Assembly: GCA_028284545.1 (NCBI GenBank)
Contig: JANQRN010000225.1
Span: 1 to 33,961, forward strand
Length of the DNA stretch: 33,961 nt
Origin: Rhodothermales bacterium
GTDB taxonomy: Bacteria > Bacteroidota > Rhodothermia > Rhodothermales > JABDKH01
Reading direction: 5' to 3'
The translations under genes and the position numbers were made by a program. The notes under the pieces were generated by a model. The model was not told the DNA's origin. It saw only the letters and a list, made by a program, of their open reading frames with translations, and ran no database searches. Shown in pieces: positions 9,565-31,620 of the stretch (positions are counted from its first letter, which is position 1; every line of letters starts with the position of its first letter).

Positions 9565-10517
9565 TGAGCGGCGTCGCGTTTCTCTCGCATCCGGCCTGCC
9601 TGGAACATGAGATGGGTACCGGGCACCCGGAGCGCCCGGATCGTCTCGAGGCAATACACAACTCCCTGTTGAAGAGTGGGCTTGACGCGGCGCTCCAGTT
9701 CGTCGAACCACCCGAGGCCACGGCTGCGCAGGTAGCCCGCGTCCATGACGCCGGCTACGTCTCGCAGATTCTATCCCTCTCACCTGACGAGGGCCGCTAC
9801 GTACCGCTTGATCCGGATACAACGATGAACTACGCCACCGTGCCGGCCGCTTTGCGAGCCGCTGGTGCTGTCATTCGTGGCGTCGAACTCGTCGTTTCGG
9901 GCCGTGCCGCGAGTGCTTTCTGCGCCGTCAGGCCTCCCGGTCACCATGCCTGCCACAACCGCGCCATGGGGTTCTGCTTCTTCAACAATGTTGCCGTTGG
10001 CGCCGGCTACGCGCTCAGCACACTGGGTGTGAAGCGAATCGCGATACTGGACTTCGACGTTCACCACGGAAACGGTACCGAAGATATCGTCCGTCACCTG
10101 TGGCCAACATCACGGATTGACGGCGTATTGTTCTGCTCTGTCTTCCAGCACCCGTACTACCCGTACGCAGGAGACAACACCGACGCAACCAACGTCATCA
10201 ACGTACCGCTTGCTGGGGGGACGCGAGGAAGTACACTCAGGAAAGAACTGCAGCGTCGTTGGTTTCCGGTCATAGACGCGTTTGACCCCGACCTGATACT
10301 CGTTTCCGCTGGGTTTGATGGACACCGCGATGACGAAATGGGCGGATGGTTGCTCGTAGACGACGACTACGCCTGGATAACACAGAGAATCTGCGAGATA
10401 GCCGCCGCTCACTGCGACGGCCGAATCGTCTCGGTCCTCGAGGGAGGCTACGAACTTGAGTCTCTCGGACGCTGTGTATGCGGTCACATCGCCAAACTCA
10501 TCTCCGCCAGTCAGTAG
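9564..10517 (+). CDS. Histone deacetylase / acetylpolyamine amidohydrolase family protein
   Basis: The 317-residue protein is a zinc-dependent deacetylase of the arginase/HDAC fold. RPPGHHA supplies the His pair (H127, H128). DFDVHHGNGT supplies zinc ligands D165 and H167, and SAGFDGHRDD the third ligand D252. LEGGYELESL carries the catalytic Tyr (Y296). All key residues are present, so it should be active. In bacteria these enzymes deacetylate polyamines or acetyl-lysine (AcuC-like); the substrate cannot be told apart here. It is cytosolic. It starts with GTG, sharing one base with the nrdJ stop (TAGTG), so the two genes are translationally coupled, an unusual pairing. Confidence 0.92.
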   Translation: MSGVAFLSHPACLEHEMGTGHPERPDRLEAIHNSLLKSGLDAALQFVEPPEATAAQVARVHDAGYVSQILSLSPDEGRYVPLDPDTTMNYATVPAALRAAGAVIRGVELVVSGRAASAFCAVRPPGHHACHNRAMGFCFFNNVAVGAGYALSTLGVKRIAILDFDVHHGNGTEDIVRHLWPTSRIDGVLFCSVFQHPYYPYAGDNTDATNVINVPLAGGTRGSTLRKELQRRWFPVIDAFDPDLILVSAGFDGHRDDEMGGWLLVDDDYAWITQRICEIAAAHCDGRIVSVLEGGYELESLGRCVCGHIAKLISASQ

Positions 10518-10609
10518 TCCGAGTGCACCTCGATTGCCGACGCGGTGACGCCGCGGTTCGCGGAGATTCAATACTTTCTGTCCGATTGCGCAACCAGAAA
10601 CCCGTGCCC

Positions 10610-13600
10610 ATGCTCCCCCGACACCTTGCAGCAGTCTTCGTAACGGCTGCGTTCCTGTTCCTCCTACCCGAGGCATCTGCTCAGCAGCCAGAATCCGGCA
10701 TCGCCTCGAGCCTGCAGGCACTCGAATTTCGCTACGTGGGCCCCACGCGGGGCGGCCGCGTCACTGCGGTTGCAGGCACCGTAGCTGAGCCTGGGACTTT
10801 CTACTTCGGTGCCACGGGCGGCGGAGTTTGGAAGACCGAGGACTATGGGTCGACATGGACAAACGTCTCCGACGGTTACTTCGATACACCATCCATAGGC
10901 GCCATCCGGGTTGCGCAAAACGACCCGAATATCGTGTACGTGGGAACGGGATCTGACGGTCTCCGATCCAACGTTATCGCTGGCCGTGGCGTCTACAAGT
11001 CCATCGACGGGGGCGAAACATGGAACCACATCGGTCTGCGCGATACCGGCCAGATTGGCGCGCTCGAGATTGACCCGCGCGACCATAACGTCGTATTCGT
11101 AGCAGCGATCGGATCAGCGTTTGGCGACAACCCGGAGCGGGGGGTCTACCGAACGCGCAACGGAGGCATGAGCTGGGAGAAGGTGCTCTTTCTCTCAGAC
11201 AGTACGGGGTTCTACGATGTCGACTTTATGCCGTCCAATCCGAACATCATCTATGCAACCGCCTGGCGCGCCGAGCGAAAGCCGTGGACGATCATCAGCG
11301 GCGGACCTGAAAATGGCATCTATCGCTCTGTCGATGGTGGCGATAACTGGATGCGCGTTGGCGGAGGACTCCCCTCGCTCATGGGTAAGATCGACCTTGC
11401 AGTCACACCAGCCGACTCACGACTCGTGTACGCCATTGTCGAGGCGCGCGGCGACTCAACTGGCCTCTACAAGTCGGTTGATCACGGCGAGACATTCGTG
11501 CACATTTCTGACGACCGTCGACTTCTCGAGCGTGCTTTCTACTACACCAATCTGTACGCCGACCCAAAAGACCCGCAGGTCGTTCATTCATTAGCGACGC
11601 GTTACGTCAAGTCCGTCGACGGGGGAAAAACGTGGCAGTCGCGATCTGCGCCTCACGGTGACCACCACGATCTGTGGATGAATCCAGACAACCCGGACCT
11701 CTTTATTCAATCAAACGACGGCGGAGCGAACGTAACGTTCAATGGCGGCGAAACCTGGTCATCACAACTCAACCAGCCGACTGCTGAGATCTATCAGGTT
11801 GAAGTCGATGAGCAGTATCCGTACTGGGTGTACGGCGGTCAGCAGGACAACTACACGGCCGTCTCGGTACCTAGCCTTGCGCATTCGCATCAAGCCGGTG
11901 CTCCGGGGCTGATCACCAACGTCGGCGGATGTGAGACCGGGCCTGCCGTGCCGCGACCAGACAATTCAGACATCGTCTATGCGAATTGCAAAGGCAACTT
12001 CACTGTGTACAACAAGCACACGAAACAGGAACAGCGGTATTCGGTGGGCGGCCAGTACATGTACGGCCACAACCCGGCCGACCTGATCCTGCGATTTCAG
12101 CGCGTGTCACCCATACATATTTCGCCGCACGATCCGGACCGCCTGTACCATGCCTCTCAGTATGTACACCTGACCACCGACGGAGGGAAGAACTGGGAGA
12201 CGATCTCACCCGACCTGACGGCTTTCGAGGCAGACAAGCAGGTCATATCGGGAAGTCCGATTACCCGCGACATCACAGGTGAAGAGTTCTATTCGACGAT
12301 CTACTCCATCCGGGAGTCGTCAGTTCAGCCCGGTGTGATCTGGGTTGGCGCGAATGACGGTCCGGTTCACGTTACGCGAGACGGTGGAGAAAACTGGATC
12401 GACGTCACCCCACGCGACCTGCCGCCGGGCGCCCGCATCGACAGCGTGGAGCCATCGCCACACGACTCATCAGTCGCCTACATCGCCGCGCTGCGCTATC
12501 AGCTTGGGGATCCGAGACCCTACATATTCAAGACGTCAGACTTCGGACGTTCGTGGACGCAAATCGTCAATGGCCTTCCCGGTGACGCGCCAACGCGGGT
12601 CGTGCGCGAAGACCCGGATCGAGCCGGACTGCTCTACGCGGGCACGGAGTGGGGGCTGTTCGTTTCGTTTGACGACGGCGCAAACTGGCACTCGTTTCAG
12701 CAGAACCTGCCCGTCACCCCGGTTACCGATATCAAGGTGCATCGGGACGACCTGGTGCTCTCAACGATGGGCCGCGGGTTCTGGATTCTGGATGACCTGA
12801 GCAGCCTTCAACAGGGCGCCGAATCCATTGTGGCACGTGGCGACGAGACCGCAGACACCGGCGCGACGCTCTTTGCACCTCGAAACACCTACCGCTACCG
12901 AATGAGCGGCGCGGGTGTCTACTTCGATTACGTCCTTCCGGCACTCCCCGAAGATGCCGAACAAACCGTAACGCTGAGCATTCTGGACAACGACGATGTT
13001 GCTGTTGTGACGTTGACGAACAAACGGCCGGCGCTGGATAAAGGGGCAGCGCGCGAACGCGACATGGCCACGAATCAGGTTCCCTACTCGGTCTCTCGCG
13101 GACTCACGGCTGACGAGGGTCTTAACCGGTTCGTCTGGAACATGCGCACGACGGGGCCCTGGCATCAACAGGAGGCGCGTCGTTGGGGTGGCGGCCCGAC
13201 CGCGGCGCCCGGCACCTATATCGCCGAGCTCACCGTCGAGTGGGACATCAGCGATGGACGACGCAGCAGCACCGTTCGCCAGCCGTTCAACCTGATCATG
13301 GACCCGCGCGTCGCCAACGCCGGCGTAACAGCACGCGACGTGGACGCCCAGATCGGTCTCGCCCACGAGGTCATCGATCTTCTGTCGCAGGCGCGCAAGC
13401 TTGCTGCCGAAGTCGAGAACAAACTGCAGTCTTCGTCGGAACTGTCGGCTGACGAGCTGGAGTCCTACGAAGTGCTGCGCGACGCACTCATCCGGCCTTC
13501 CGGACGATATACGCAGCCGATGCTGGTCTCGCAGATTGAGTATCTGTACGGCATGTTGGACCGCGCCGACCAACGGCCCGGGCAGGACATGTTTGACCGA

Positions 13601-13681
13601 CTTGAGGTGTTGCGACGCGAGTTCGCATCACTCGTCGAGGCAAACCCGGTAGGGAGCGAGACAGAGCCCAGCCAGGAATGA
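10610..13681 (+). CDS. Large secreted BNR/Asp-box (sortilin/VPS10-like) propeller protein
   Basis: The 1023-residue protein has a signal peptide (HLAAVFVTAAFLFLLPEASA before QQPES). About eleven Asp-box motifs of the S/TxDGGxTW kind follow, for example TEDYGSTW, SIDGGETW, SVDGGKTW, TTDGGKNW, TRDGGENW and SFDDGANW. These form one or two beta-propellers up to about residue 720. GRGFWILDDLSSLQ closes the propeller region as in the glycosyl-hydrolase-annotated proteins of Bacteroidota and Gemmatimonadota. The remaining 300 residues include a beta-sandwich-like domain (FVWNMRTTGPWH...GTYIAELTVEW) and a helical tail rich in QAR/ELE. There is no T9SS sorting domain, so it may stay periplasmic. Despite database names, hydrolase activity is unproven. 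ATG 10610 replaces the tracked 10478. Confidence 0.88.
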   Translation: MLPRHLAAVFVTAAFLFLLPEASAQQPESGIASSLQALEFRYVGPTRGGRVTAVAGTVAEPGTFYFGATGGGVWKTEDYGSTWTNVSDGYFDTPSIGAIRVAQNDPNIVYVGTGSDGLRSNVIAGRGVYKSIDGGETWNHIGLRDTGQIGALEIDPRDHNVVFVAAIGSAFGDNPERGVYRTRNGGMSWEKVLFLSDSTGFYDVDFMPSNPNIIYATAWRAERKPWTIISGGPENGIYRSVDGGDNWMRVGGGLPSLMGKIDLAVTPADSRLVYAIVEARGDSTGLYKSVDHGETFVHISDDRRLLERAFYYTNLYADPKDPQVVHSLATRYVKSVDGGKTWQSRSAPHGDHHDLWMNPDNPDLFIQSNDGGANVTFNGGETWSSQLNQPTAEIYQVEVDEQYPYWVYGGQQDNYTAVSVPSLAHSHQAGAPGLITNVGGCETGPAVPRPDNSDIVYANCKGNFTVYNKHTKQEQRYSVGGQYMYGHNPADLILRFQRVSPIHISPHDPDRLYHASQYVHLTTDGGKNWETISPDLTAFEADKQVISGSPITRDITGEEFYSTIYSIRESSVQPGVIWVGANDGPVHVTRDGGENWIDVTPRDLPPGARIDSVEPSPHDSSVAYIAALRYQLGDPRPYIFKTSDFGRSWTQIVNGLPGDAPTRVVREDPDRAGLLYAGTEWGLFVSFDDGANWHSFQQNLPVTPVTDIKVHRDDLVLSTMGRGFWILDDLSSLQQGAESIVARGDETADTGATLFAPRNTYRYRMSGAGVYFDYVLPALPEDAEQTVTLSILDNDDVAVVTLTNKRPALDKGAARERDMATNQVPYSVSRGLTADEGLNRFVWNMRTTGPWHQQEARRWGGGPTAAPGTYIAELTVEWDISDGRRSSTVRQPFNLIMDPRVANAGVTARDVDAQIGLAHEVIDLLSQARKLAAEVENKLQSSSELSADELESYEVLRDALIRPSGRYTQPMLVSQIEYLYGMLDRADQRPGQDMFDRLEVLRREFASLVEANPVGSETEPSQE

Positions 13682-19510: not shown

Positions 19511-19761
19511 CAGGAGAATAGGAGGGCATGAGGTGAACGCGATAATTCATAAACCGAAATAACGCCCGGAACTAGCTCACGCCACCGACGATTCTTGTTG
19601 GACGACTTATCCATCTGCCCGACACGAGCAGCATGGCCAAAAAAACGCAGGTGCCGGTCCGGTAGATTGCCCTAAGACGCTCTCGCCGTCCTCCAAGGAG
19701 GGCGGGCGGGTGACCTGATCGGCGAATCGATCGGGCAGGACCCAAACGGGATTGCGGCGTC
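19511..19761. other. Intergenic region between the FG-GAP lipoprotein and the propeller/beta-helix gene
   Basis: No gene is visible. CGTCCTCC (19687-19694) can pair with GGAGGGCG (19697-19704), a GC-rich stem with an almost absent loop. About 50 bases further along the - strand comes a T7 run (19634-19640). The two are too far apart for a canonical terminator. A promoter for the downstream gene presumably lies in the AT-rich part at 19540-19565, but I cannot define it. Confidence 0.35.
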
Positions 19762-20964
19762 CTAGCGCTTGGAGGCTACTAGTTGCAGGGAGAACTTGCC
19801 GACGCCGTTGTTGATGTAGGCGAAGCCCTCGTCGAGGTTGTCGGGGCCGAAGTCCAGGTCGCCGTCGCCATCCACATCCTGCATTCTGATCCAAGCAAAC
19901 CACGGATCTCGCTCGCCGCCCGGGAAGTCGACATCTTCGAGCGTCCTGTCGACGAACGTGCGACCGCCCTCATTCCGGAGGTACTGTACCGTGCGGCCAA
20001 CGTAGAAGCCGAGTTCTCCGCCGTCATCCCCGTCTCGTGTGCGGTTGATCACGAGGTCCCGGTCACCATCGCCGTCGAGGTCCTCGGCGTCGAAGTCGAG
20101 GACTGCCCCAAACGGACTTAGTGCAGGCAAGAGCGTCTTCTGGCCACTCGAGAAAACCCCTGTTGGGTTGCCCCAGTAGATAGCGGTAGCATCTCCGTCC
20201 CGCTCGTGAGCGCCCGCAAGGAGGTCGACAAATCCGTCCCGATCCACATCGATAAGCTCGGCTGAGAAGACCTTTGCCATGTTGTCGACGAAACGGTCAT
20301 CGACCTTCTCGAAGGCTCCAGTCCCGTCGTTGACGTAGAAGAAGGGATCGAATCCACCAACAAATATGTCGATGTCGCCGTCATTGTCGATGTCGGCTGC
20401 GGCTCCGCCGTGGTGGAAACCAGTTTGCTCGGTCATCTTCTTCCACGAGAACTCAGCTGCGTTTTCCTGAACGATGAGCTTCGGTTGGCCACCGGGGAAC
20501 GGCATCGCGTCGTATCCGTGATCAAAAATGAAGACGTCGTCGAGGCCGTCTCCGTTGAAATCGCTGGTGATCGCTTTGCGCGCGTGGGTCGCCGTCGGCA
20601 TTTGCCCACCGAATTCCAGGGTGGATGACGCAAACTTTCCCGTCCCGTCGTTAATGGCGAGGATGCTGCTCACCTCTTTCTGCGTGAGGTATTCACCGGT
20701 GCCAACAAAGACGTCGGTGTCCCCATCGCCGTCCGCGTCCAGGTAGGCGATCGCGTCGCTCAGGTCACCTGTGCCGCTGGGTCGCGGGAGTGACGAGTAC
20801 GCTATGTGAATGTCCGCCTTCGCATGCGTGTAGGAGCTTCCGGCGTCGGCGTTGGGTGCCGGAGCAATGCGCATCTCGTTGACCGAGGCCGGGTTGTCGC
20901 CACTGCAACCAGCGGCTACCGCGACAATCAGGAGTAGGAGTGGGAGCTTTGACACGACGGTCAC
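19762..20964 (-). CDS. FG-GAP/VCBS-repeat lipoprotein
   Basis: The 400-residue protein begins with a lipoprotein signal, LLLLIVAVAAGC, with the lipidated Cys at residue 20. SGDN follows, somewhat like a Bacteroidota surface-export signal. The body carries six calcium-type loops of the DxDxDGxxD kind: LDADGDGDTD, SDFNGDGLDD, ADIDNDGDID, IDVDRDGFVD, EDLDGDGDRD, QDVDGDGDLD. These are spaced about 50-60 residues apart and form an FG-GAP/VCBS propeller. It probably sits on the outer membrane and binds Ca2+. The start is GTG. It follows the hybrid regulator by 50 bases and may be its cotranscribed target. No enzyme motif is seen; a binding or adhesion role is inference. Confidence 0.88.
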   Translation of the reverse strand: MTVVSKLPLLLLIVAVAAGCSGDNPASVNEMRIAPAPNADAGSSYTHAKADIHIAYSSLPRPSGTGDLSDAIAYLDADGDGDTDVFVGTGEYLTQKEVSSILAINDGTGKFASSTLEFGGQMPTATHARKAITSDFNGDGLDDVFIFDHGYDAMPFPGGQPKLIVQENAAEFSWKKMTEQTGFHHGGAAADIDNDGDIDIFVGGFDPFFYVNDGTGAFEKVDDRFVDNMAKVFSAELIDVDRDGFVDLLAGAHERDGDATAIYWGNPTGVFSSGQKTLLPALSPFGAVLDFDAEDLDGDGDRDLVINRTRDGDDGGELGFYVGRTVQYLRNEGGRTFVDRTLEDVDFPGGERDPWFAWIRMQDVDGDGDLDFGPDNLDEGFAYINNGVGKFSLQLVASKR

Positions 20965-21014
20965 TGAAGTCGGGTGGGTGTAGACTTTCAGTATCGACCG
21001 GTGTCAGAAACGCA

Positions 21015-24000
21015 TTAAGGGTCTGGTGGCCCGTCCAGCATTCCGCGCACGGCGCTTGGGCTGATGCCGAACTCCTTCTTGTAGACGGCGGAGAAGTGCG
21101 ACGGCGAGCGAAAACCAACAAACGACGCGACGTCGGCGACGGTACCCGCGCCCTCCTCGAGAAGGTGCCTGGCCTGAGCGAGTCGAAAGCGTCGCAAGTA
21201 GGCCGCCGGGGAAGTCCCGATTGTGTCGGCCATCCGGCGCTCGAGAGCCCGCCGGCTGGTGCCCATCGATTCAGCGAGGAGCGAGACGCCAAAGAAAGAG
21301 TCGGATATGTGCTGTTGTATCGTTGCGTTAAGCTCAGCGACAAACCCCGCCTCGGCGCCCGGGGCCTCCAGACCCATGTCTGGGAGCAGGATCTTCTGCA
21401 CTGGCTTGCTCAGCCTCGTTCGCGAAGCGACGAGGTTGTTGATGCGCGCTCTCAGGTGCTGCGGACTAAACGGTTTGCTTATGTAGTCGTCAGCCGCACA
21501 CTCGAGTCCGCGTATGACACTTGCCTCATCTGCCCGCGCCGTGAGCAGGATGAACGGAGTGTCAGCGATTCCGTCTTCGGCGCGCAGCGTCTCCAGGACT
21601 TCATATCCGTCCATCCCCGTCATCATCACATCGCAGATGACTATCTCCGGTTGACACTGCCGAATCAAATCGAGCCCATCCGAACCCGACCCGGCCGCGC
21701 GGACGTCGAAGTCGCTCAGCTCTGACGCGATGAACTCGCGGAGCTCGGCATCGTCATCAACTACAACGACGGTTGGTCCCGTCGAGGGGCGCGCCGTACT
21801 CCCTCGTGTTTCCGGCGTTTGCGCGGTCTCGGTTACCGTCAGCGTTCTTTCATGTCTTGACCCGCCCACGCTCGACTGCGTACGTCGCAGCGGTAGCTGG
21901 ATCGAGAAAGAACTGCCAAAGCCCACCTCGCTCTCCAGAATAACGGTGCCGTCCATCATCTGCACGAGCTCCTTCACGATTGCCAGACCGATACCAGTCC
22001 CACCGACTTCCGACCCCGCGCTGATCTGCTCAAATCGCTCGAAGACCCGCTGATGGTTGGGCTGGTCGATGCCGATGCCGGTGTCGCGCACAGTGACCCG
22101 GACATTCTCGTCTCCGGATGTAAGCGTCACCCACACCTTGCCACCCGACTGGGTGAACTTGATCGCGTTCGAGATCAGGTTGTCCACGACAATGGAGACT
22201 TTGTCGGCGTCTGCGACAGTCTTGTAGTCGGAGTCGTCAGATCGAAAGGCGAGCGTAACGTCTGCTCGCTCGGCTGCGGATGCGAAGTACCGAACCCGCG
22301 ACGAGACCACGTCGACCAGATCGCACGCTGCCTCCTGTAGACTTAGCTGACCCGATTCCAGCTTGGAGAGGTCCAGAAGCTGGTTCACGAGGTTCAGAAG
22401 ACGATTCGCGTTCCGAAGCACCCCTTTGTCGCGAACTGCGAGATCGGGGTCCAGATCCTTGCGCTGCAGCCAGGACTCAATTGGCCCGACAATCAGGGTC
22501 AAGGGCGTTCTGAACTCATGGGAGATGTTGGCGAAGAAGCGACTCTTCGCACTATCGAGTTCCGCGAGGCGTCGTGCCTCCTCATCAGCTCGCGACTTCT
22601 CCTTCGCCAGCTGCGCGAGCTGCTGCGTTCGGATGATGCGATTCACGCGGCTTCTATACATCTGGACCGCAACGGCGATTAGCAGCAGCGTTCCCAGGAG
22701 ACGAAACGCGATTGTCTGATAGAAACGCGGCTCGACGAAGACCGCGAGGCTCACACCGTCGTCATTCCAGAGTCCGTCGTTGTTCGAGCCACGTACCTGA
22801 AACGTGTACCTGCCCGGAGGCACGCGCGTGTATCGTGCCGTTCGACCAAGCGGGTCGATCCAGTCGTTGTCGTACCCAAGCAACTTGTAGCGATAGTCGT
22901 TTTCGCTGGGCAGCAGGAAGTTGAGTGCCGAAAACTCGAAGGAGAACGCTCCTGTCGTCACGGGAACGGTCAGGCTAGCCCCGACCGGCACCGAAACGTC
23001 TCCGCTACGCTCAGAAAGCAGTATGCGCGTAACGACAACCGGTGGCACAAATCTGTTGTCCACGATTTCCGACGGCCGGAACCGCGTCAGCCCGTTCATG
23101 CCACCAAAGAACAACTCCCCATCTGAAGTCGCGAATCTCGCGCGCCTGTTGTACTCGGTGTTGCCGGTCCCATCTTCTGCGGAGAAAGTTCGTATCTGAC
23201 CGCCGCGTTGCCCTGCCGGTTGGAATCGTGAAAGCCCATTATTCGTGCCCAACCAAAGTTCACCCTCAGACCCCGGGAGGACACTGTAGACAACTGATCC
23301 GGGCAGACCATCGTCGGTTGCATAGTGCACAAACGTGTTGTCGCCCGTGTCGAATGACGAAAGGCCCGCGCCAGACGCCAACCATGCGATTCCATCGTCT
23401 CCGACGTGAATATCCCAAACCCCTTCACTTTCCAGGCGACTCCCAGCGGTCGACACAAGCGGGTGGGACACGGCGCCTCCGTCGCGCGGGTCGAGTCGGA
23501 CAACCATCGAGTTCGTGCCAAGCAGCATCACGCTATCGGAAACGGCAGCAAACGACTCTACGGTGATGTAGGTGGAGTAGCCGTCGATGGAATCCAACGA
23601 ATACCGCGTCAATTGCTCGGTTGCCGTCGAGTACCTCAGCACTTCGCCACCGAAGCCGGCGGCAATCCAGATGTCGTCCCCGACCATCGCCGTAGCCGCG
23701 TTCGTTCCAAATCGATCCATTGAGGATCTCACAAAGGAGCCGCCCCCGAACGAACACAAGAAGCCATCAGCGACGATCCACATCTTTCCCGATATGCTCT
23801 TGTGCACAGCCGAAATGTTGTCGCCGCACAGGTCCGAATTGCCCGTGCTATAGTTCCGAATCGCACCGTTGGAGGAAACTCGAGACAATCCGCTACCAAA
23901 CGTGCCGACCCAGACAGTTTCTTGGACTTCGTCTACGAAGATTGCCGACACTGATCGACCGGCCAGTGTGTTCGGGCTGTTCGGATTCCGCGTCAGATTT

Positions 24001-25046
24001 CGAAACTGCTTTGCGTTCGGGTCATGCCGGTAGGCACCAGAGTGCGTGCCGACCCAAAGACCACCCGCCGCGTCGACGAACAGCGCCTGCGCGAAGTTGT
24101 CCAGGTACGTGCCGTCGGTATCGGGCACCATTAGGACATCTCTCGAACGCAACGACGCGAGGTCAACCTGAATGAGACCGGCACCGGTGCCGAGCCATGC
24201 AGTCTTGTCCGTCAAGATGACATCGCGGACCCTTTCGTCGGCGACGCCAGGCCCGGCAGGCCGAAGCGATCCACTTTGTCGGACTAGCGGAAAGGCCTGT
24301 GCTCCCCATAACCGACCGTAGTCGTCAACCTCTACGTTGCTCCAGTTTCCTCCCGCGGTCAGCAGGAGCGTCCATTGACTTGTACCTGCGTTCAGATGAT
24401 AGTAGAGCGTGCTGTCGCTCGAGACATCAACGCGCTTGGCAATCATGCCGTCTGCCACTTCAACCACGCCGAGGAAGTACAGTCCGAACTTGTCCTGTAC
24501 GGCGTTACTTCCGCGGTCCACATCGTGTCGCATCACGGAGCCATCCGGCATGACCGAGAAGAGTCCCCCGGTCGTCGCAGCCCAGATTGCACCGCGCTTG
24601 TCCTCATACAGATCCAGGATTGAGAACCGCTGCGAAAGATCTCTTCCGGGATCGAGTTCGATGTGCACGATGGGCCCGAGACCATCGTCCATACGGTCCA
24701 ATCCCGTCGCAGTACCAACCCACAGCCTGCCTGACCGATCTACAAGGAGGCTCTCAATAAGGTTGCTCGACAACGAGGTGGTATCGCCTGCAACGCTTCG
24801 CAGCGTGACGAAGTTGTACCCGTCGAATCGGTTGAGCCCGTCCGGCGTACCCAGCCAGATATACCCGTCGTGGTCCTGAGCGATTGCATACACGGAGTTG
24901 TGCGAGAGGCCGTCCTCGACGCCCACGCGATCAAACCGTTCTGCTTGCGCCCGCCACTTCTCCTGGGAGAGGGCGTCGGGTGCACCGGCGACGATGTGCG
25001 CCAAGGAGATGAGAGTTGCAATCGCAAGCTGGCGGATTCCAGGCAT
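21015..25046 (-). CDS. Hybrid two-component system protein (sensor kinase, receiver and AraC DNA-binding in one chain)
   Basis: The 1343-residue protein has a signal peptide (residues 1-28). About twelve two-component-regulator propeller repeats follow (e.g. DHDGYIWLGTPDGLNRFDG). A Y_Y_Y domain near 705-775 (YRYKLLGYDNDW ... GRYTFQVRGSN) and one membrane helix near 780-800 come next. HisKA has SHEFRTPL with phospho-acceptor H843. The ATPase domain has N-box NLISNAIKF near 957, DTGIGI and GGTGIGLAIVKEL. The receiver has VVDDDAE, phospho-Asp D1139 in CDVMMTGMDG, and the conserved Lys in SKPF. A C-terminal AraC helix-turn-helix pair spans about 1245-1340. All catalytic residues are intact. It senses a periplasmic ligand and regulates transcription, usually of neighbouring outer-membrane uptake genes in Bacteroidota. 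Here the neighbours are surface proteins instead. Confidence 0.96.
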   Translation of the reverse strand: MPGIRQLAIATLISLAHIVAGAPDALSQEKWRAQAERFDRVGVEDGLSHNSVYAIAQDHDGYIWLGTPDGLNRFDGYNFVTLRSVAGDTTSLSSNLIESLLVDRSGRLWVGTATGLDRMDDGLGPIVHIELDPGRDLSQRFSILDLYEDKRGAIWAATTGGLFSVMPDGSVMRHDVDRGSNAVQDKFGLYFLGVVEVADGMIAKRVDVSSDSTLYYHLNAGTSQWTLLLTAGGNWSNVEVDDYGRLWGAQAFPLVRQSGSLRPAGPGVADERVRDVILTDKTAWLGTGAGLIQVDLASLRSRDVLMVPDTDGTYLDNFAQALFVDAAGGLWVGTHSGAYRHDPNAKQFRNLTRNPNSPNTLAGRSVSAIFVDEVQETVWVGTFGSGLSRVSSNGAIRNYSTGNSDLCGDNISAVHKSISGKMWIVADGFLCSFGGGSFVRSSMDRFGTNAATAMVGDDIWIAAGFGGEVLRYSTATEQLTRYSLDSIDGYSTYITVESFAAVSDSVMLLGTNSMVVRLDPRDGGAVSHPLVSTAGSRLESEGVWDIHVGDDGIAWLASGAGLSSFDTGDNTFVHYATDDGLPGSVVYSVLPGSEGELWLGTNNGLSRFQPAGQRGGQIRTFSAEDGTGNTEYNRRARFATSDGELFFGGMNGLTRFRPSEIVDNRFVPPVVVTRILLSERSGDVSVPVGASLTVPVTTGAFSFEFSALNFLLPSENDYRYKLLGYDNDWIDPLGRTARYTRVPPGRYTFQVRGSNNDGLWNDDGVSLAVFVEPRFYQTIAFRLLGTLLLIAVAVQMYRSRVNRIIRTQQLAQLAKEKSRADEEARRLAELDSAKSRFFANISHEFRTPLTLIVGPIESWLQRKDLDPDLAVRDKGVLRNANRLLNLVNQLLDLSKLESGQLSLQEAACDLVDVVSSRVRYFASAAERADVTLAFRSDDSDYKTVADADKVSIVVDNLISNAIKFTQSGGKVWVTLTSGDENVRVTVRDTGIGIDQPNHQRVFERFEQISAGSEVGGTGIGLAIVKELVQMMDGTVILESEVGFGSSFSIQLPLRRTQSSVGGSRHERTLTVTETAQTPETRGSTARPSTGPTVVVVDDDAELREFIASELSDFDVRAAGSGSDGLDLIRQCQPEIVICDVMMTGMDGYEVLETLRAEDGIADTPFILLTARADEASVIRGLECAADDYISKPFSPQHLRARINNLVASRTRLSKPVQKILLPDMGLEAPGAEAGFVAELNATIQQHISDSFFGVSLLAESMGTSRRALERRMADTIGTSPAAYLRRFRLAQARHLLEEGAGTVADVASFVGFRSPSHFSAVYKKEFGISPSAVRGMLDGPPDP

Positions 25047-25080
25047 TGCCGCGCGTCACGCCCTATTGTGGTTACGGTCT

Positions 25081-28000
25081 CTAGCGCAGCCTGACCAGCG
25101 TGACGGTCTCGCGTTGCTTTTCCAGCGCAACGACAACGTAGTAGACTCCACTTGCGACCGCCTCTGGTTTCCAGACGACTTGATGTGGCCCCACCTCCTG
25201 CCTCTCGTCACGCAACACGGCCACACGTCTTCCAAGAACGTCAAAAACCGAGACTGTTGTTCGCCCTGGTTGCCCCAGGACGTAATCCAGCGTGACGACT
25301 TCAGAGAACGGATTGGGATAGGCCGGCGACAGCCGGAAATCCCCTGCCGGCACCTCGTCTACGCCGACAGCGGTCACCTCCACGGTGACAGGTGCAGGTC
25401 GTGTTGATTCTGCATTTCCGACGCTGTCAACGGCCAATGCATAGAAGGAGTAGGTTCCGGTTGTTGGCGTTTCGACCCTGATGCTATCTCCTGCGGAAGT
25501 CCCTGCGAAAAGGAACGGTCCATCGTCGATGGAGACGAAAACGGACGAGTGGCTGATGCCTGAGCCGCTCCCGTCATCTGCCAGCCAACGCACTGTCGCG
25601 GAGTCACCTTCCAATGGCGCGGAGAACGGCAACATGTCTGTCGAAGGCGCATCCAGGTCGAGGGTGTTGATGTGGGTGTTCGTCAGGATCGCGTCGTTTA
25701 GGTCAAAGACGATGCTCGCTCGGTTGCTGAGCGCGTCTCCGGTTGCGAGGCCCTCGCGGGGATGGACCGAGAACGAAACAAAGCCCTCCCCCTCGGGAGG
25801 GTTTACGTTTGGCGGCAGTTCGATGCCGACAACCTCCCACCGCAAATTGGGCCCATCCTGTACGAACGTGAACCCCGGATGACTCGACGGTCCCAACTCG
25901 ACGGTCGACGCGTCGAAGTCAGCGTCCAGCGTATCGTCAATCGTTATCCGATAGGCGGCTGCCCCTGCTGTCGCGAGGTTTTCGAAGTAGATCGTGTAGT
26001 CTATCCGCCCGACCTCCGACAGGTAACCGCGTGACCCACTCCCGGCAGGTCCATGTTTTTCGTTTGGGTCCAGTGAGGTGACGGGTTCCAACTCGCGCCG
26101 CGACGTGAAAACAGCTGAACCTGGGCAAGCCTGCACGGCCGCTTGGCCACCTCTCTTGTTCAGGCGTCGAATGTAGTCGCAAGCATCGGTGAACTTCTTG
26201 TACGGACGCGCAACGACCCTGTCAAAGACAAAAATCCCCAGCTCCCCAATGCACTTGGCTATGTTCGTCGTGAACCGCTTCGCCAAAAACGAACCTACGC
26301 TTGGCGTCATCACAGCCTGAAAACTGGAGTACAGCCTCGACGCGCTGGCCAGTTTTGACGAACGCCGACTCAGACGTGACGCCTCGTAGCGAGCATTCTG
26401 CCAGGCGCGGTCCCAGTCAGCAGAACCGTAGGTATCGTAGTCCATCCGTACCGCGCGGCACCACTGATATAGTTGCGTGCTCTTGAAGTCTACAACCTCT
26501 TGGGTCACCTCGGCGAGTGCTACGCCGGCTACTATTGTGAGTCCCGCCGAAATCGGTTCAAACTGCTGCGCGCTCGATTCATGCTTGCTGCTTGCACTCT
26601 CTATGCGGTCAGCCCAGGCCTCAAGGCCAAACGTGCGGGTTTCCCCGGGCTCCATACTGTTAATCCAGAGCAGCGCAGCCGAATCTGACGGTAGTTCATC
26701 GACGGCAAAGTCTGCGGGCAGCATCACGTTCTCGTTGCCCTCGTCGTCAAACCCGGTGATGATCTTGGAGATGTGCCCTCCTTCGCTGAGCGCCAAGACG
26801 GCAATCATGTCACCTGTTGGGCGCCTGCTCGCGTTCGTGTAGGTGTACGTATACAGCAGCGGCGCCCCCACGCGAATTACATCTCGTCCGGTGAGCGTAA
26901 TAACGATGTTCGGCGCCACGCTGATCGGATCCGCGGTAGAGGACAGCAGGTACATGGCGTTCGAGGCAACGTCGACAATCGTCACACGGTTGTTGTCGGG
27001 ATCTCGCGTCAGGTTGGCGGCCCCTGACACCTGCCTCCACGATTGTCCGCCGTCCTCTGAAGCATAGACTTCCAGGGAGTCTTCGTCGTTGTCGCCGAGG
27101 TGGTCGTTGTCGTACTCGAGTATGAGTTCCGTAAGGTTGTTGCCCTCACCAGTGTTGGTGTACACTCGCCACCAGTTGCGAACGGCTGCACCAAACGTGC
27201 GCGGGGTTTGGTTTCCGTGCGTCTCGACAAAAATGGAATCAAAGTCTGCCACAGAGCCCGTACGCACGCTGCTATCGTAGAAGACAGACCGGTCGTTTGC
27301 CCGAGCCGCTGCGTACATCGTGATTCGAGCGAAATTTTCCAGGTTGGCCGGGGCGCCGCCCAGTCCTCCTTCAGGAATCACAAGGTGCCCATCGGTGATC
27401 CGCGCAAAACCATCAAAATCGATCGCGATCTGCGGCAGAACGTTGGTACCCGTCAACGCTACGTCGGGACCGTCTGTAAGGACAAACGCCGATGTCGCGT
27501 CAACGCCCGAAACGTTCCTCGGCCCCGAGCCCGATAGAACAAGTCGTCTTGGGGAGAACGGGCCGTTGACGATAACGTCGCCAGTGGCGCTGATATCGAG
27601 ACTACCCGTCGTTACCCCATTGCTCCAGAGCGTTCCGCCGACCTCGATGTTCTCGACAGCAAAGTTGCCCTCAGAATCAAAAAGGCTGTCTGCAACCACC
27701 AGCGAACCCTCAACAACTACCGGCGCACCAACCCGCATGGATCCCGAGACGGAGAGATCACCGAAGATGTTGGAGCGCCAGAGTTTGGATCGGTCGAAAA
27801 AGGCGATACTGTCCACTGATACATCGGTGTAATCGATGTAAGTCTCGTTCGTAAGTGTAATCGGATGCCCGTCCATGTCGAGGAAGCCGGGCTGCATGCT
27901 GACGGTCGCCGCGCTAAACGTCAGCGGGCTCTCGGCCGTCACTACCGACGAATCCGCGGCGTTCCATTCTCCGCCAAGCGGCGAACCGCTCTCATGGCGG

Positions 28001-28884
28001 ATGTAATTCTCCAGGCCGATGAACTTCGTCGACCGCGTCTCCCAGAACCCACGATTGTCGACCGTCCCATCCACGAGGATCGTGAACTGAGCAAGTGCAT
28101 TGCGGATCGTACCGTTGTTGATCAACGTGCCGCCATTTTGTATTTCGATTGCATCGATAAAGCTGCCTCCGATGTAGGCCTCCAGTATTCCGTTGTTGGT
28201 GACCACCCCCTCGAACACGATCCCCGAAGGAAGACTATGTCGACCGTCCAGCGTAACCGGACCAACTATGGTCCCGCCGTTCAGATAAGTGGTGGAGTCA
28301 CCGACGATCGTATAGCCGTTCGCGTTTAGTCTCCCACCGCGCAGTCGGAAATCAGCCAGGCCGAAAGTGACATCGCTACCCAGCGAAATCCCGACCTCAG
28401 GATCATCGTTGTGCCACACGCTCTCGAGTAGCGCCCCGCCGACGGTACTTATTGTCTGCGCTATTCCACCCTCCAGTTCAGTAATCGAGGGCCTCCACGT
28501 ACCACGATTGATCAGGTCGCCGACGACCCGTATTGCAAGTCCGCTGGGCGAGTTTGGCTCGACGACGCCAGCGTTGTCGACATCGCCATTGACGAGCAGA
28601 TTCTCCTGGAAGGCACCACCAACGAGGTCGCGAATGCTCCCGGCAGCGGTGATAGTCAAATTTCGGCAGACGTCGTCGCGCGCCACGACGACCGGTCCCT
28701 GAACCGTTACGTCATCGGTCGCTGTCGGAACAGTGCCGCCGATCCACGTAGTTGACTCCCACCAGTCACCGCCTGCGGTTGTCGATGTGATTTGGGCAGA
28801 ACTGGCATTGCAGGCGGCGGTTGCGGCAACTGCGAGGCAGGTCGCGAGGATTCGCGCTGCTACTGATCGAGAGGGCGCTGACAT
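25081..28884 (-). CDS. Large T9SS-exported surface protein with DUF7619 domain
   Basis: The 1267-residue protein (from Met at 28884; the tracked start adds 14 residues) has a signal peptide ending ...CNASSA before QITS. The first ~560 residues are beta-helix-like, with repeated V-x-N-x-G/L strands (GDVDNAGVVEPN, GTVDNRGFWE). A discoidin/BNR-like segment (YASEDGGQSW) and a CARDB-like sandwich follow. Residues ~795-920 are an arginine-rich, probably helical stretch with four cysteines (WC, KC, AC, QAC). SLDPNEKHGP starts a DUF7619 domain, typical of T9SS proteins. A fibronectin/Ig-like domain and a sorting domain (PAYPNPFSEVVTLDYVLG ... ASGVYYVVV) end it. It lies 34 bases before the hybrid regulator gene, so the two are probably cotranscribed. 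Likely an adhesin or stalk protein; ligand unknown. Confidence 0.88.
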   Translation of the reverse strand: MSAPSRSVAARILATCLAVAATAACNASSAQITSTTAGGDWWESTTWIGGTVPTATDDVTVQGPVVVARDDVCRNLTITAAGSIRDLVGGAFQENLLVNGDVDNAGVVEPNSPSGLAIRVVGDLINRGTWRPSITELEGGIAQTISTVGGALLESVWHNDDPEVGISLGSDVTFGLADFRLRGGRLNANGYTIVGDSTTYLNGGTIVGPVTLDGRHSLPSGIVFEGVVTNNGILEAYIGGSFIDAIEIQNGGTLINNGTIRNALAQFTILVDGTVDNRGFWETRSTKFIGLENYIRHESGSPLGGEWNAADSSVVTAESPLTFSAATVSMQPGFLDMDGHPITLTNETYIDYTDVSVDSIAFFDRSKLWRSNIFGDLSVSGSMRVGAPVVVEGSLVVADSLFDSEGNFAVENIEVGGTLWSNGVTTGSLDISATGDVIVNGPFSPRRLVLSGSGPRNVSGVDATSAFVLTDGPDVALTGTNVLPQIAIDFDGFARITDGHLVIPEGGLGGAPANLENFARITMYAAARANDRSVFYDSSVRTGSVADFDSIFVETHGNQTPRTFGAAVRNWWRVYTNTGEGNNLTELILEYDNDHLGDNDEDSLEVYASEDGGQSWRQVSGAANLTRDPDNNRVTIVDVASNAMYLLSSTADPISVAPNIVITLTGRDVIRVGAPLLYTYTYTNASRRPTGDMIAVLALSEGGHISKIITGFDDEGNENVMLPADFAVDELPSDSAALLWINSMEPGETRTFGLEAWADRIESASSKHESSAQQFEPISAGLTIVAGVALAEVTQEVVDFKSTQLYQWCRAVRMDYDTYGSADWDRAWQNARYEASRLSRRSSKLASASRLYSSFQAVMTPSVGSFLAKRFTTNIAKCIGELGIFVFDRVVARPYKKFTDACDYIRRLNKRGGQAAVQACPGSAVFTSRRELEPVTSLDPNEKHGPAGSGSRGYLSEVGRIDYTIYFENLATAGAAAYRITIDDTLDADFDASTVELGPSSHPGFTFVQDGPNLRWEVVGIELPPNVNPPEGEGFVSFSVHPREGLATGDALSNRASIVFDLNDAILTNTHINTLDLDAPSTDMLPFSAPLEGDSATVRWLADDGSGSGISHSSVFVSIDDGPFLFAGTSAGDSIRVETPTTGTYSFYALAVDSVGNAESTRPAPVTVEVTAVGVDEVPAGDFRLSPAYPNPFSEVVTLDYVLGQPGRTTVSVFDVLGRRVAVLRDERQEVGPHQVVWKPEAVASGVYYVVVALEKQRETVTLVRLR

Positions 28885-29005
28885 GGCAAGACCGGTGACA
28901 CGAGAGGTGACATGTGAAACTGCCACCCAAAATGCTCACAGACGCCCATCGCAAATGCGGCATTCACTGCCAAACATGCGTCAGCAACGTCCAAAAGTGC
29001 GCCAG

Positions 29006-31399
29006 CTACTCGTATCTGAGCGCCTTTACAGGATCCGTCAGCGACGCCTTCACTGAGTGGAAGCCGACGGTCAGGACCGTGACCGCCAGCGTGATCAGGC
29101 CGGCAGTGACGAATACGCCAACGCCGACGTCGACACGAAAGGCAAATCGCTCCAGCCATTTCGTCATTGCGAAGTAGGCGATCGGGCTCCCGATCACAAA
29201 CGCTACCAACACCAGTCGGCTGAAGTCGCGTGACAGCAGCAGTACGATGTCACCCAGGCTTGCACCCAGCGTCTTGCGCACGCCAATCTCTTTGCGTCGC
29301 TGCACGACCATGAACGCCGCAAGTCCGAACAAGCCGAGGCAGGCAATCACCAGCGCCAGCACCGTGATCACAGAGAACGCCACGCTGAGTCGCTGCTCAG
29401 CCCGGTGCAGAGAGTTGTATGCGTCGTCCAGGAATACGTACTCGAAGGGATATCCTGGAAGGAAAGTCTGCGCGACTTCCCCAATCTGATCAACGGTCCC
29501 CGACACATCGTCTGAGCTGACCTTCACGAGCACTTTCCGGATCCACCCTGAGTCGATACTCAGCGCCAGCGGATTGATCTCGAGGTGCGACGAGTGGTAC
29601 TGGAAATCCTGAACGACGCCAACGACCTCCTTCGGCTCCGAACCGATGACTATCTGCTTTCCGACCGCGGAATCCCAACCCAGACGCCGTTTGGCCGTCT
29701 CGTTGATGATGACGGCTGCACCCGCATCAGCAGCCCGTTCGGCTTCGAAGTCGCGCCCCTCCACGATCTCAAGGCCGAGCAGGTCGGTATATCCGTAGTT
29801 GATCGCGGTGCGGTAGATAGTCATCTCGTCATCACCCTGGTGACCATCCCAGTCGCTGATCAGCGTAGACGAATCTATGTTTGTCGGAACGTGGCCTGAT
29901 GAGGTCACAGCAACGACGCCCGGTACGCGCGACAGCTCGTCGCGCATCGCGGGCCAACGTTCGCCAAACTCCCACTCGCGGATATTCACCGAGACGATAT
30001 GGTCTCGCGACATCCCCGTGTCGGCTTGCTGAATGTACCCGAGCTGCTTGTTGATTACCACCGTGCCGAAAACAAGCGCGATGCTAACGGCAAATTGCGT
30101 AACGACAAGCGCGTTTCGCAGCCGAGATCGAGAGCCAACCTTCGAGGCTGCGGATTTCAGAACACGCGACGGTGCCATTCGCGAGAGTATTACGGCCGGA
30201 TACAGGCCTGATATCACGCCAACCGCGATCGCAATCAGCGGGACAACCAAAAGGAACGAGGGGTCCAGCAGCATCGAGAGCGGAATTTCCCGCTCGACCA
30301 TCGTTGCAAACCCGGGCAGTAGCAGTTTTACCGCGGCGACCGCTATAGCGGCGGCAAAGAGCGCAAGCAGGACTGATTCGCCCAGAAACTGAAGTAGTAA
30401 CTGATGTCGGTCAGCCCCCGCGGCTTTACGGACCCCAACTTCACGCGCACGAGTGGCCGACCGCGCGGACGCCAGGTTCGTATAGTTGACGCATGCAGTG
30501 AACATGATGATTGTGGCAGCGAGAATCAGTAGCCACACGTACCGCACGTCGCCCCGGCCGGGCGGATCGAAGTTGGCCCGCGAACGCAGGTGCAGGTCAC
30601 CAAGAGGCTGCGGAAAGTATGTGGCAATCGAAGCGCCGGTTTCCTGCACCCAGCTCAGCTCCGATACGTTTCTCGTGACAATTTCCTGCAGGTCGGCCTG
30701 AAACGTTGACAGATCGGTACCCGATCGAAGAACGACGTAGTTGTAGTAGCTGCTATTGCTCCACGAGTCATTCTCTTGCCGATTGGACGTCGATAGCGAG
30801 ACGATGTAGGAAAAGTCGAGATGAGAGTTCGCGGGAGGCTCTACAGCGATACCCGTTATCGTCACCCGGTATTCGTCACGGAAGTGCACAACTGAGAACT
30901 CGCGCCCAACGACATCGCCTGTGCCAAACAGCTTGTCCGCAAACTCCGGTGTAACAACGGCCGAGTTCGGTGACGCCAGCACCGAGGATTCATCGCCGGC
31001 GAGAAGGTCGAAATCGAAGACACGAAAGAACGAGGGCGTTGCGAAGACGCCGTCATCCATGAAGCTCTTGTCATCGGCCCGTATGAGGGCCGGCAGGTTG
31101 CCGACAACGGTCGCCTCTTCAACGTAGGCCAACTCATCGCGCAGCGCGATCTCGAGAGGCCGCGGTGAGACCGCAAACTCGTTGGATCCCAGGAAGAAGT
31201 TGTCCGGCTGGCGCTGGACAATCCTGTACGTACGATCAACCCTCTCGTGGAACTGATCGTAGCTCAGCTCGAAGCGCACAAATAGCGCTATCAGCAACAC
31301 CACTGTTAGCCCGAGTGCTAGCCCGAACACATTGAGTGACGAATGCAGCGTGTGCTTTCTGAAAGCACGGAGTGCTACGAGCAGATAGTTCTTCAGCAT
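29006..31399 (-). CDS. MacB/FtsX-type ABC transporter permease
   Basis: The 797-residue permease has the double-MacB layout common in Bacteroidota. An N-terminal helix (LNVFGLALGLTVVLLIALFV) is followed by a periplasmic core to about residue 280, then three helices with the coupling motif AREVGVRKAAGA. A fourth helix (VVTQFAVSIALVFGTVVI) precedes a second periplasmic core. The C-terminal FtsX unit has RRKEIGVRKTLGAS and the ending SLTDPVKALRYE. Such proteins couple cytosolic ATP hydrolysis to periplasmic work such as export of lipoproteins, peptides or drugs. No ATPase partner is in the window, which is usual for this subfamily. Met at 31399 is preferred to the tracked TTG at 31414. The next gene on the strand begins 121 bases downstream. 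Confidence 0.93.
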   Translation of the reverse strand: MLKNYLLVALRAFRKHTLHSSLNVFGLALGLTVVLLIALFVRFELSYDQFHERVDRTYRIVQRQPDNFFLGSNEFAVSPRPLEIALRDELAYVEEATVVGNLPALIRADDKSFMDDGVFATPSFFRVFDFDLLAGDESSVLASPNSAVVTPEFADKLFGTGDVVGREFSVVHFRDEYRVTITGIAVEPPANSHLDFSYIVSLSTSNRQENDSWSNSSYYNYVVLRSGTDLSTFQADLQEIVTRNVSELSWVQETGASIATYFPQPLGDLHLRSRANFDPPGRGDVRYVWLLILAATIIMFTACVNYTNLASARSATRAREVGVRKAAGADRHQLLLQFLGESVLLALFAAAIAVAAVKLLLPGFATMVEREIPLSMLLDPSFLLVVPLIAIAVGVISGLYPAVILSRMAPSRVLKSAASKVGSRSRLRNALVVTQFAVSIALVFGTVVINKQLGYIQQADTGMSRDHIVSVNIREWEFGERWPAMRDELSRVPGVVAVTSSGHVPTNIDSSTLISDWDGHQGDDEMTIYRTAINYGYTDLLGLEIVEGRDFEAERAADAGAAVIINETAKRRLGWDSAVGKQIVIGSEPKEVVGVVQDFQYHSSHLEINPLALSIDSGWIRKVLVKVSSDDVSGTVDQIGEVAQTFLPGYPFEYVFLDDAYNSLHRAEQRLSVAFSVITVLALVIACLGLFGLAAFMVVQRRKEIGVRKTLGASLGDIVLLLSRDFSRLVLVAFVIGSPIAYFAMTKWLERFAFRVDVGVGVFVTAGLITLAVTVLTVGFHSVKASLTDPVKALRYE

Positions 31400-31620
31400 C
31401 GGTGTCGGGTACAAGTTCAGTTCCCCAGCGATTTACAATCAGCGTGCCAAGGCACACGGACGACGCCGGAAGTCCGCGTGGTGACGCCCGTGGGGAATCC
31501 TGTGACAAATCTGCGCACATTCGACGGCCCGCGTGACCGCCCACAGAACACACGGTGTTCGGAGGCGGACACCCCAGCCTGCCTGAGAATGCAAAATCTT
31601 TAAGTTGAGCGGATACGTCA
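31400..31620. other. Intergenic region between the ABC permease and the 51-codon ORF
   Basis: The region holds the divergent promoters of the permease and of the small ORF, neither of which I can pin down. A strong hairpin lies at 31554-31573: GGTGTTCG pairs with CGGACACC around a GAGG loop. It is 47 bases before the small ORF. The 86-aa tracked ORF across this region overlaps the permease gene antisense and does not look like protein. Confidence 0.35.

Follow-up and report, generated by a model that had tools for sequence, protein, structure and literature searches.

The presence of an HTCS is taken as a marker of a SusC/SusD polysaccharide locus. The window analysed here spans a whole contig of 33,961 bases, from a draft genome (3.85 Mb, 81% complete) of a Rhodothermales bacterium, and encodes a hybrid regulator of this type in the midst of genes for putative surface proteins. 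The question raised by this locus is which genes such a regulator may control, and whether its neighbours are its targets.

Gene content of the locus and the hybrid regulator

The minus strand of the window carries, in series, the genes of a MacB/FtsX permease, a DUF7619 protein with a T9SS tail, the HTCS, an FG-GAP_3 lipoprotein and an FG-GAP_2/CSLREA/T9SS protein (Table 1). The successive spacers, read directly from the sequence, are 121, 34, 50 and 251 bases long, and the two shortest of them (25047-25080 and 20965-21014) flank the HTCS gene. Gene calls and Pfam thus agree with the original prediction, which placed a hybrid regulator 34 bases after a DUF7619/T9SS gene and 50 bases before the gene of an FG-GAP lipoprotein. 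A second T9SS propeller/beta-helix protein, predicted to come next, was found as well, with FG-GAP_2, CSLREA and a T9SS tail, after the 251-bp gap.

Table 1. Features of the HTCS locus, in order along the minus strand
Feature	Position	Strand	Evidence
ADOP/MacB-like FtsX permease	29006..31414	-	Pfam MacB_PCD, FtsX; NCBIfam ADOP
121-bp gap before the DUF7619 gene, may be regulatory	28885..29005	-	
DUF7619 protein, signal peptide, T9SS type A sorting tail, 1267 aa	25081..28884	-	Pfam DUF7619, Por_Secre_tail; TIGR04183 over cut-off
Complete HTCS, 1343 aa	21015..25046	-	Pfam, key residues, solved relatives 4a2l and 3v9f
FG-GAP_3 repeat lipoprotein-like protein	19762..20964	-	Pfam, motif scan, translation
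251-bp gap, may contain a separate promoter or terminator	19511..19761	-	
FG-GAP_2 propeller, CSLREA/beta-helix-like region and T9SS tail, 1554 aa	14846..19510	-	Pfam FG-GAP_2 8e-90; TIGR04183; TIGR04214

The DUF7619 gene is likely to start with the ATG at 28884, in agreement with the coordinates of the original prediction. Its product and the FG-GAP_2/CSLREA protein both exceed the TIGR04183 cut-off for a T9SS type A tail, and SprA, the component of the T9SS machinery that was looked at, is matched in the same genome (SprA_N, 272 bits). The FG-GAP_3 protein has a lipobox-like signal (..VAAGC) and, according to the motif scan, six DxDxDGxxD loops of the calcium type; judging by this loop motif only, it may bind calcium. 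The permease gene, whose product scored 321.6 bits against TIGR03434 (ADOP), under the cut-off of 622, shares the strand of the DUF7619 gene, lies 121 bp ahead of it and might be part of its transcript, although its membership of the unit is uncertain.

The regulator is intact, as had been predicted. Its Reg_prop, Y_Y_Y, HisKA, HATPase_c, Response_reg and HTH_18 domains each exceed the curated Pfam cut-off, and the sensor, HisKA and HATPase, the receiver and a full AraC HTH are thus combined in a single polypeptide. The phospho-acceptors His843 and Asp1139 are conserved, the N and G boxes are present, and a single transmembrane stretch is located near residues 778-796. The sensor has homologs of known structure in the HTCS sensors 4a2l and 3v9f. 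Oligosaccharide binding has been demonstrated for sensors of the same architecture in Bacteroides (PMC3243724), and we infer from the homology that the ligand of the window HTCS may be oligosaccharide-like too.

Several regulatory candidates were rejected. No motif common to the 121-bp and 251-bp gaps exceeded shuffled sequence, no AraC-type direct repeats were above chance, and neither were the scans for sigma-70-like promoters and terminators. The Bacteroidota promoter TANNTTTG had two matches, fewer than expected, both on the plus strand and both within genes. The RNA fold of the 251-bp gap gave a z of -1.1. Single-sequence structure prediction for the FG-GAP lipoprotein was unusable (pLDDT 32).

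HTCS genes and SusC/SusD

Gene calls and Pfam annotated neither SusC nor SusD on the contig, and Pfam revealed no glycoside hydrolase or lyase families, in line with the original claim that Sus and CAZyme genes are lacking around the regulator. The SusC/SusD pair and the CAZymes adjoining the regulator, by which a PUL is recognised, are thus missing from this locus. This setting was presented as exceptional, but it turned out to be the norm. In 13 Rhodothermales genomes, 80 matches to the Y_Y_Y sensor and 40 to SusD (some of the latter being pieces of one gene) were placed by coordinates, and none of the 80 sensor matches had a SusD match within 10 kb. A SusD model built in this analysis recovered SusD close to HTCS in Reichenbachiella and at three loci of Prevotella, and the gene-called regions of this order gave no match. 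HTCS genes in the order are generally uncoupled from SusC/SusD, and since this placement is the rule, the same lack in the window is nothing special.

The genome itself, at 81% completeness, has one SusC over the cut-off and one weak SusD fragment, both on other contigs (C169 and C101, respectively), and the HTCS could be supposed to control mainly such a distant SusC/SusD locus. However, one candidate locus cannot serve the several Y_Y_Y sensors of this genome, and a genome of the same genus (G001) and one of the same family (G005) have sensors and no SusD match. Control of a distant Sus locus is, therefore, very improbable.

Neighbours of HTCS genes in related genomes

The locus was initially regarded as a four-gene unit whose order should recur in relatives. 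This order was found in none of the 99 relatives examined, so the specific operon has to be given up as a conserved unit, although the general pairing of HTCS with surface proteins survives. The closest HTCS relative among the 99 genomes (G009, 38-40% identity) lies on a 4.4-kb contig that is too short to judge the downstream genes, and its upstream gene has no T9SS tail. The FG-GAP lipoprotein has a single ortholog in these relatives (G005, 55%), with no HTCS around it. A Vps10/sortilin-like BNR protein is encoded at 10478-13681 of the window, and its relative (about 30%, locus L061) is located approximately 5 kb from this ortholog. The relatives of the DUF7619 region, present in nine genomes, have no full HTCS neighbour in the stretches examined; in G057 (L070), the DUF7619 gene is preceded at a distance of 1.7 kb by an HTCS-like sensor that lacks the HTH. 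A contig search with the HTCS as query gave no locus recognisable as belonging to this order.

The pairing was assessed with gene calls for the surroundings of 69 Y_Y_Y genes, 22 additional HTCS regions and 40 control regions, the last of which represent part of the genomes only. T9SS tails were scored with a profile built in this analysis, neighbours were defined as lying within two genes, and the window HTCS was excluded from the counts. A T9SS-tail gene was found beside 16 of the 40 other full HTCS versus 56 of 474 control positions, which is about 3.4 times the rate of control genes (p=1.9e-5; this test and those below take the loci to be independent, which is not entirely the case). Y_Y_Y sensors that fell short of a full HTCS score were at baseline (6/49); the difference between them and the full HTCS (p=0.003) did not change on collapsing near-identical orthologs. 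The enrichment is chiefly downstream, where T9SS-tail genes occupy 12 of 72 positions (+1/+2) versus 20 of 634 in the control (p 2e-5), while upstream they number 5/79 (p 0.13).

The first HTCS set had a T9SS-tail neighbour in 11 of 19 cases (p 4e-6) and the second set alone in 5 of 21 (p=0.10). Part of the second set comes from fragmented genomes richer in T9SS genes, and the actual rate may lie closer to its lower value. Over half of the surveyed HTCS have no T9SS neighbour. Most other HTCS with a T9SS partner have it downstream, while the window HTCS has its nearest T9SS neighbour on the upstream side and another one at +2. The same genome contains a second Y_Y_Y/kinase gene (G000:C1, L074), truncated by the end of its contig; 160 bp upstream of it, in the same orientation, lies a gene with a T9SS tail.

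Some of these figures would also fit an orphan HTCS that has been inserted into a variable stretch with many T9SS cargo genes and regulates genes elsewhere. T9SS tails are carried by about 3% of the sampled control genes and number 103 in the genome studied, the four-gene order is not found in the 99 relatives, and the second sample reached only p=0.10. Such an incidental neighbourhood is, however, at odds with the baseline rate of the matched control sensors, with the bias of the enrichment to the downstream side, and with the tight spacing of the window genes on one strand, and we consider it rather unlikely. The pairing of HTCS with T9SS surface proteins beyond chance looks real and is of moderate strength. 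As the HTCS of this order are uncoupled from Sus and tend to lie just upstream of T9SS-exported FG-GAP or LamG-type proteins, the window locus appears to be one instance of this pairing.

The downstream neighbours point to the same kind of partner. Among 71 of them, Pfam counted Por_Secre_tail 11 times, Response_reg six, FG-GAP_3 five, and LamG, FG-GAP and FlgD_ig four times each, whereas in 71 control genes no surface family, Por_Secre_tail included, reached two members. Neither SusD nor glycoside hydrolases were among the 25 families listed for the downstream neighbours, and in upstream neighbours Por_Secre_tail occurred in 5 of 71. FG-GAP_3 proteins adjoin 5 of the 40 other HTCS (L140, L105, L107, L203 and L116, besides the window; in L195 one is at +3) versus about 0.6-0.9 expected from a share of 0.4-0.6% of genes, as converted from per-genome repeat counts to proteins. 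Giant LamG or DUF11 proteins come after other HTCS. In L097 (G011) and L122 (G015), which belong to two families of the order, closely related HTCS are followed by the gene of a stand-alone receiver (about 135 aa) and then by that of a giant protein (more than 2400 aa), which in L122 has LamG repeats.

Two comparisons of surface proteins revealed only repeats and tails in common and no full-length homology, and HTCS with the T9SS-linked label occur in scattered places of the HTCS tree, on which the label changes at least nine times; the pairing has thus been formed or lost repeatedly.

The original prediction went further and suggested a ligand-controlled adhesion or contact system, in which calcium-loaded FG-GAP propellers and beta-helix proteins would attach and the HTCS would act as the switch. 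The calcium-type loops of the FG-GAP_3 protein, the T9SS tails of the surface proteins and the LamG-repeat giants beside other HTCS are consistent with it. On the other side, neither an adhesin domain nor homology to a known adhesin was found, and a PDB sequence search with the three surface proteins returned no matches. In addition, FG-GAP_3 repeat proteins are encoded within about 2 kb of SusD in G006 (2.25 Mb; 2252969 with SusD at 2253485), G011 (2.72 Mb), G015 (1.59 Mb; 1590171 with SusD at 1588720) and G035 (0.68 Mb), which suggests a nutrient-related role of this family in the order and fits nutrient capture equally well. An adhesive function of the window proteins is possible and is not favoured over glycan capture, since FG-GAP_3 genes also stand beside SusD genes; the contact system as a whole appears improbable.

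Proposed function and comparison with known systems

The reading we prefer, at a probability of roughly 0.55, is that the window HTCS is a glycan-type sensor that switches the adjacent genes of T9SS-exported or lipid-anchored surface proteins, as one case of a recurring pairing with varying partners. A glycan-type ligand would bind to the periplasmic double propeller and activate the kinase across the membrane, the phosphoryl group would be passed to Asp1139 of the receiver, and the AraC domain would then bind DNA and activate the nearby genes of the DUF7619 and FG-GAP_3 proteins and, perhaps, of the FG-GAP_2/CSLREA protein. Their products would be exported by the T9SS, SprA being present, or anchored by lipid. 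Cotranscription of the HTCS with its neighbours, local regulation and ligand binding by the outputs at the cell surface would all be expected under this scheme. As for the surface-protein outputs originally claimed, they are the likely local targets because relatives show the HTCS-T9SS/FG-GAP neighbourhood more often than the controls do; the parts of the claim that were not supported are the conservation of the four-gene order and the exceptional character of the Sus-less setting.

More tentatively, and with a probability that we put short of even, the HTCS family might have been redeployed throughout the order from Sus sugar uptake to the switching of individual T9SS surface proteins (FG-GAP, LamG), so that a glycan is sensed and the surface is changed, in an arrangement assembled many times. 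No description of HTCS adjoining genes of T9SS cargo or surface proteins was found in the literature searched. If HTCS of the whole order are paired with T9SS surface proteins, PUL prediction based on HTCS would be misleading there, and the ligands of the paired sensors would offer a testable route to the functions of T9SS cargo of the FG-GAP, DUF7619 and LamG types.

The window HTCS has the same domain order as the HTCS of Bacteroides PULs (4a2l, 3v9f; PMC3243724, PMC11253607), but the latter sit at SusC/SusD or CAZymes and the former does not. The receivers of Bacteroides HTCS carry an S/CHIP motif (PMC11253607), whereas the respective receiver segment of the window HTCS (residues 1161-1164) reads ADTP. 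This motif is missing from most HTCS receivers of the Rhodothermales (one SHIP among 33 with a readable motif), and the contact of the receiver with the DNA domain may thus differ in this order. A two-component pathway tied to the T9SS is also known as PorX/PorY-SigP of Porphyromonas gingivalis, in which kinase, regulator and sigma factor are separate and the secretion machinery is what they control (PMC4800418, PMC8265659); unlike it, the window regulator is a one-protein HTCS located beside cargo genes. Known T9SS type A cargo with FG-GAP, LamG and beta-helix domains has, like the window proteins, a signal peptide and a C-terminal sorting domain, and what distinguishes the window is the adjacent HTCS.
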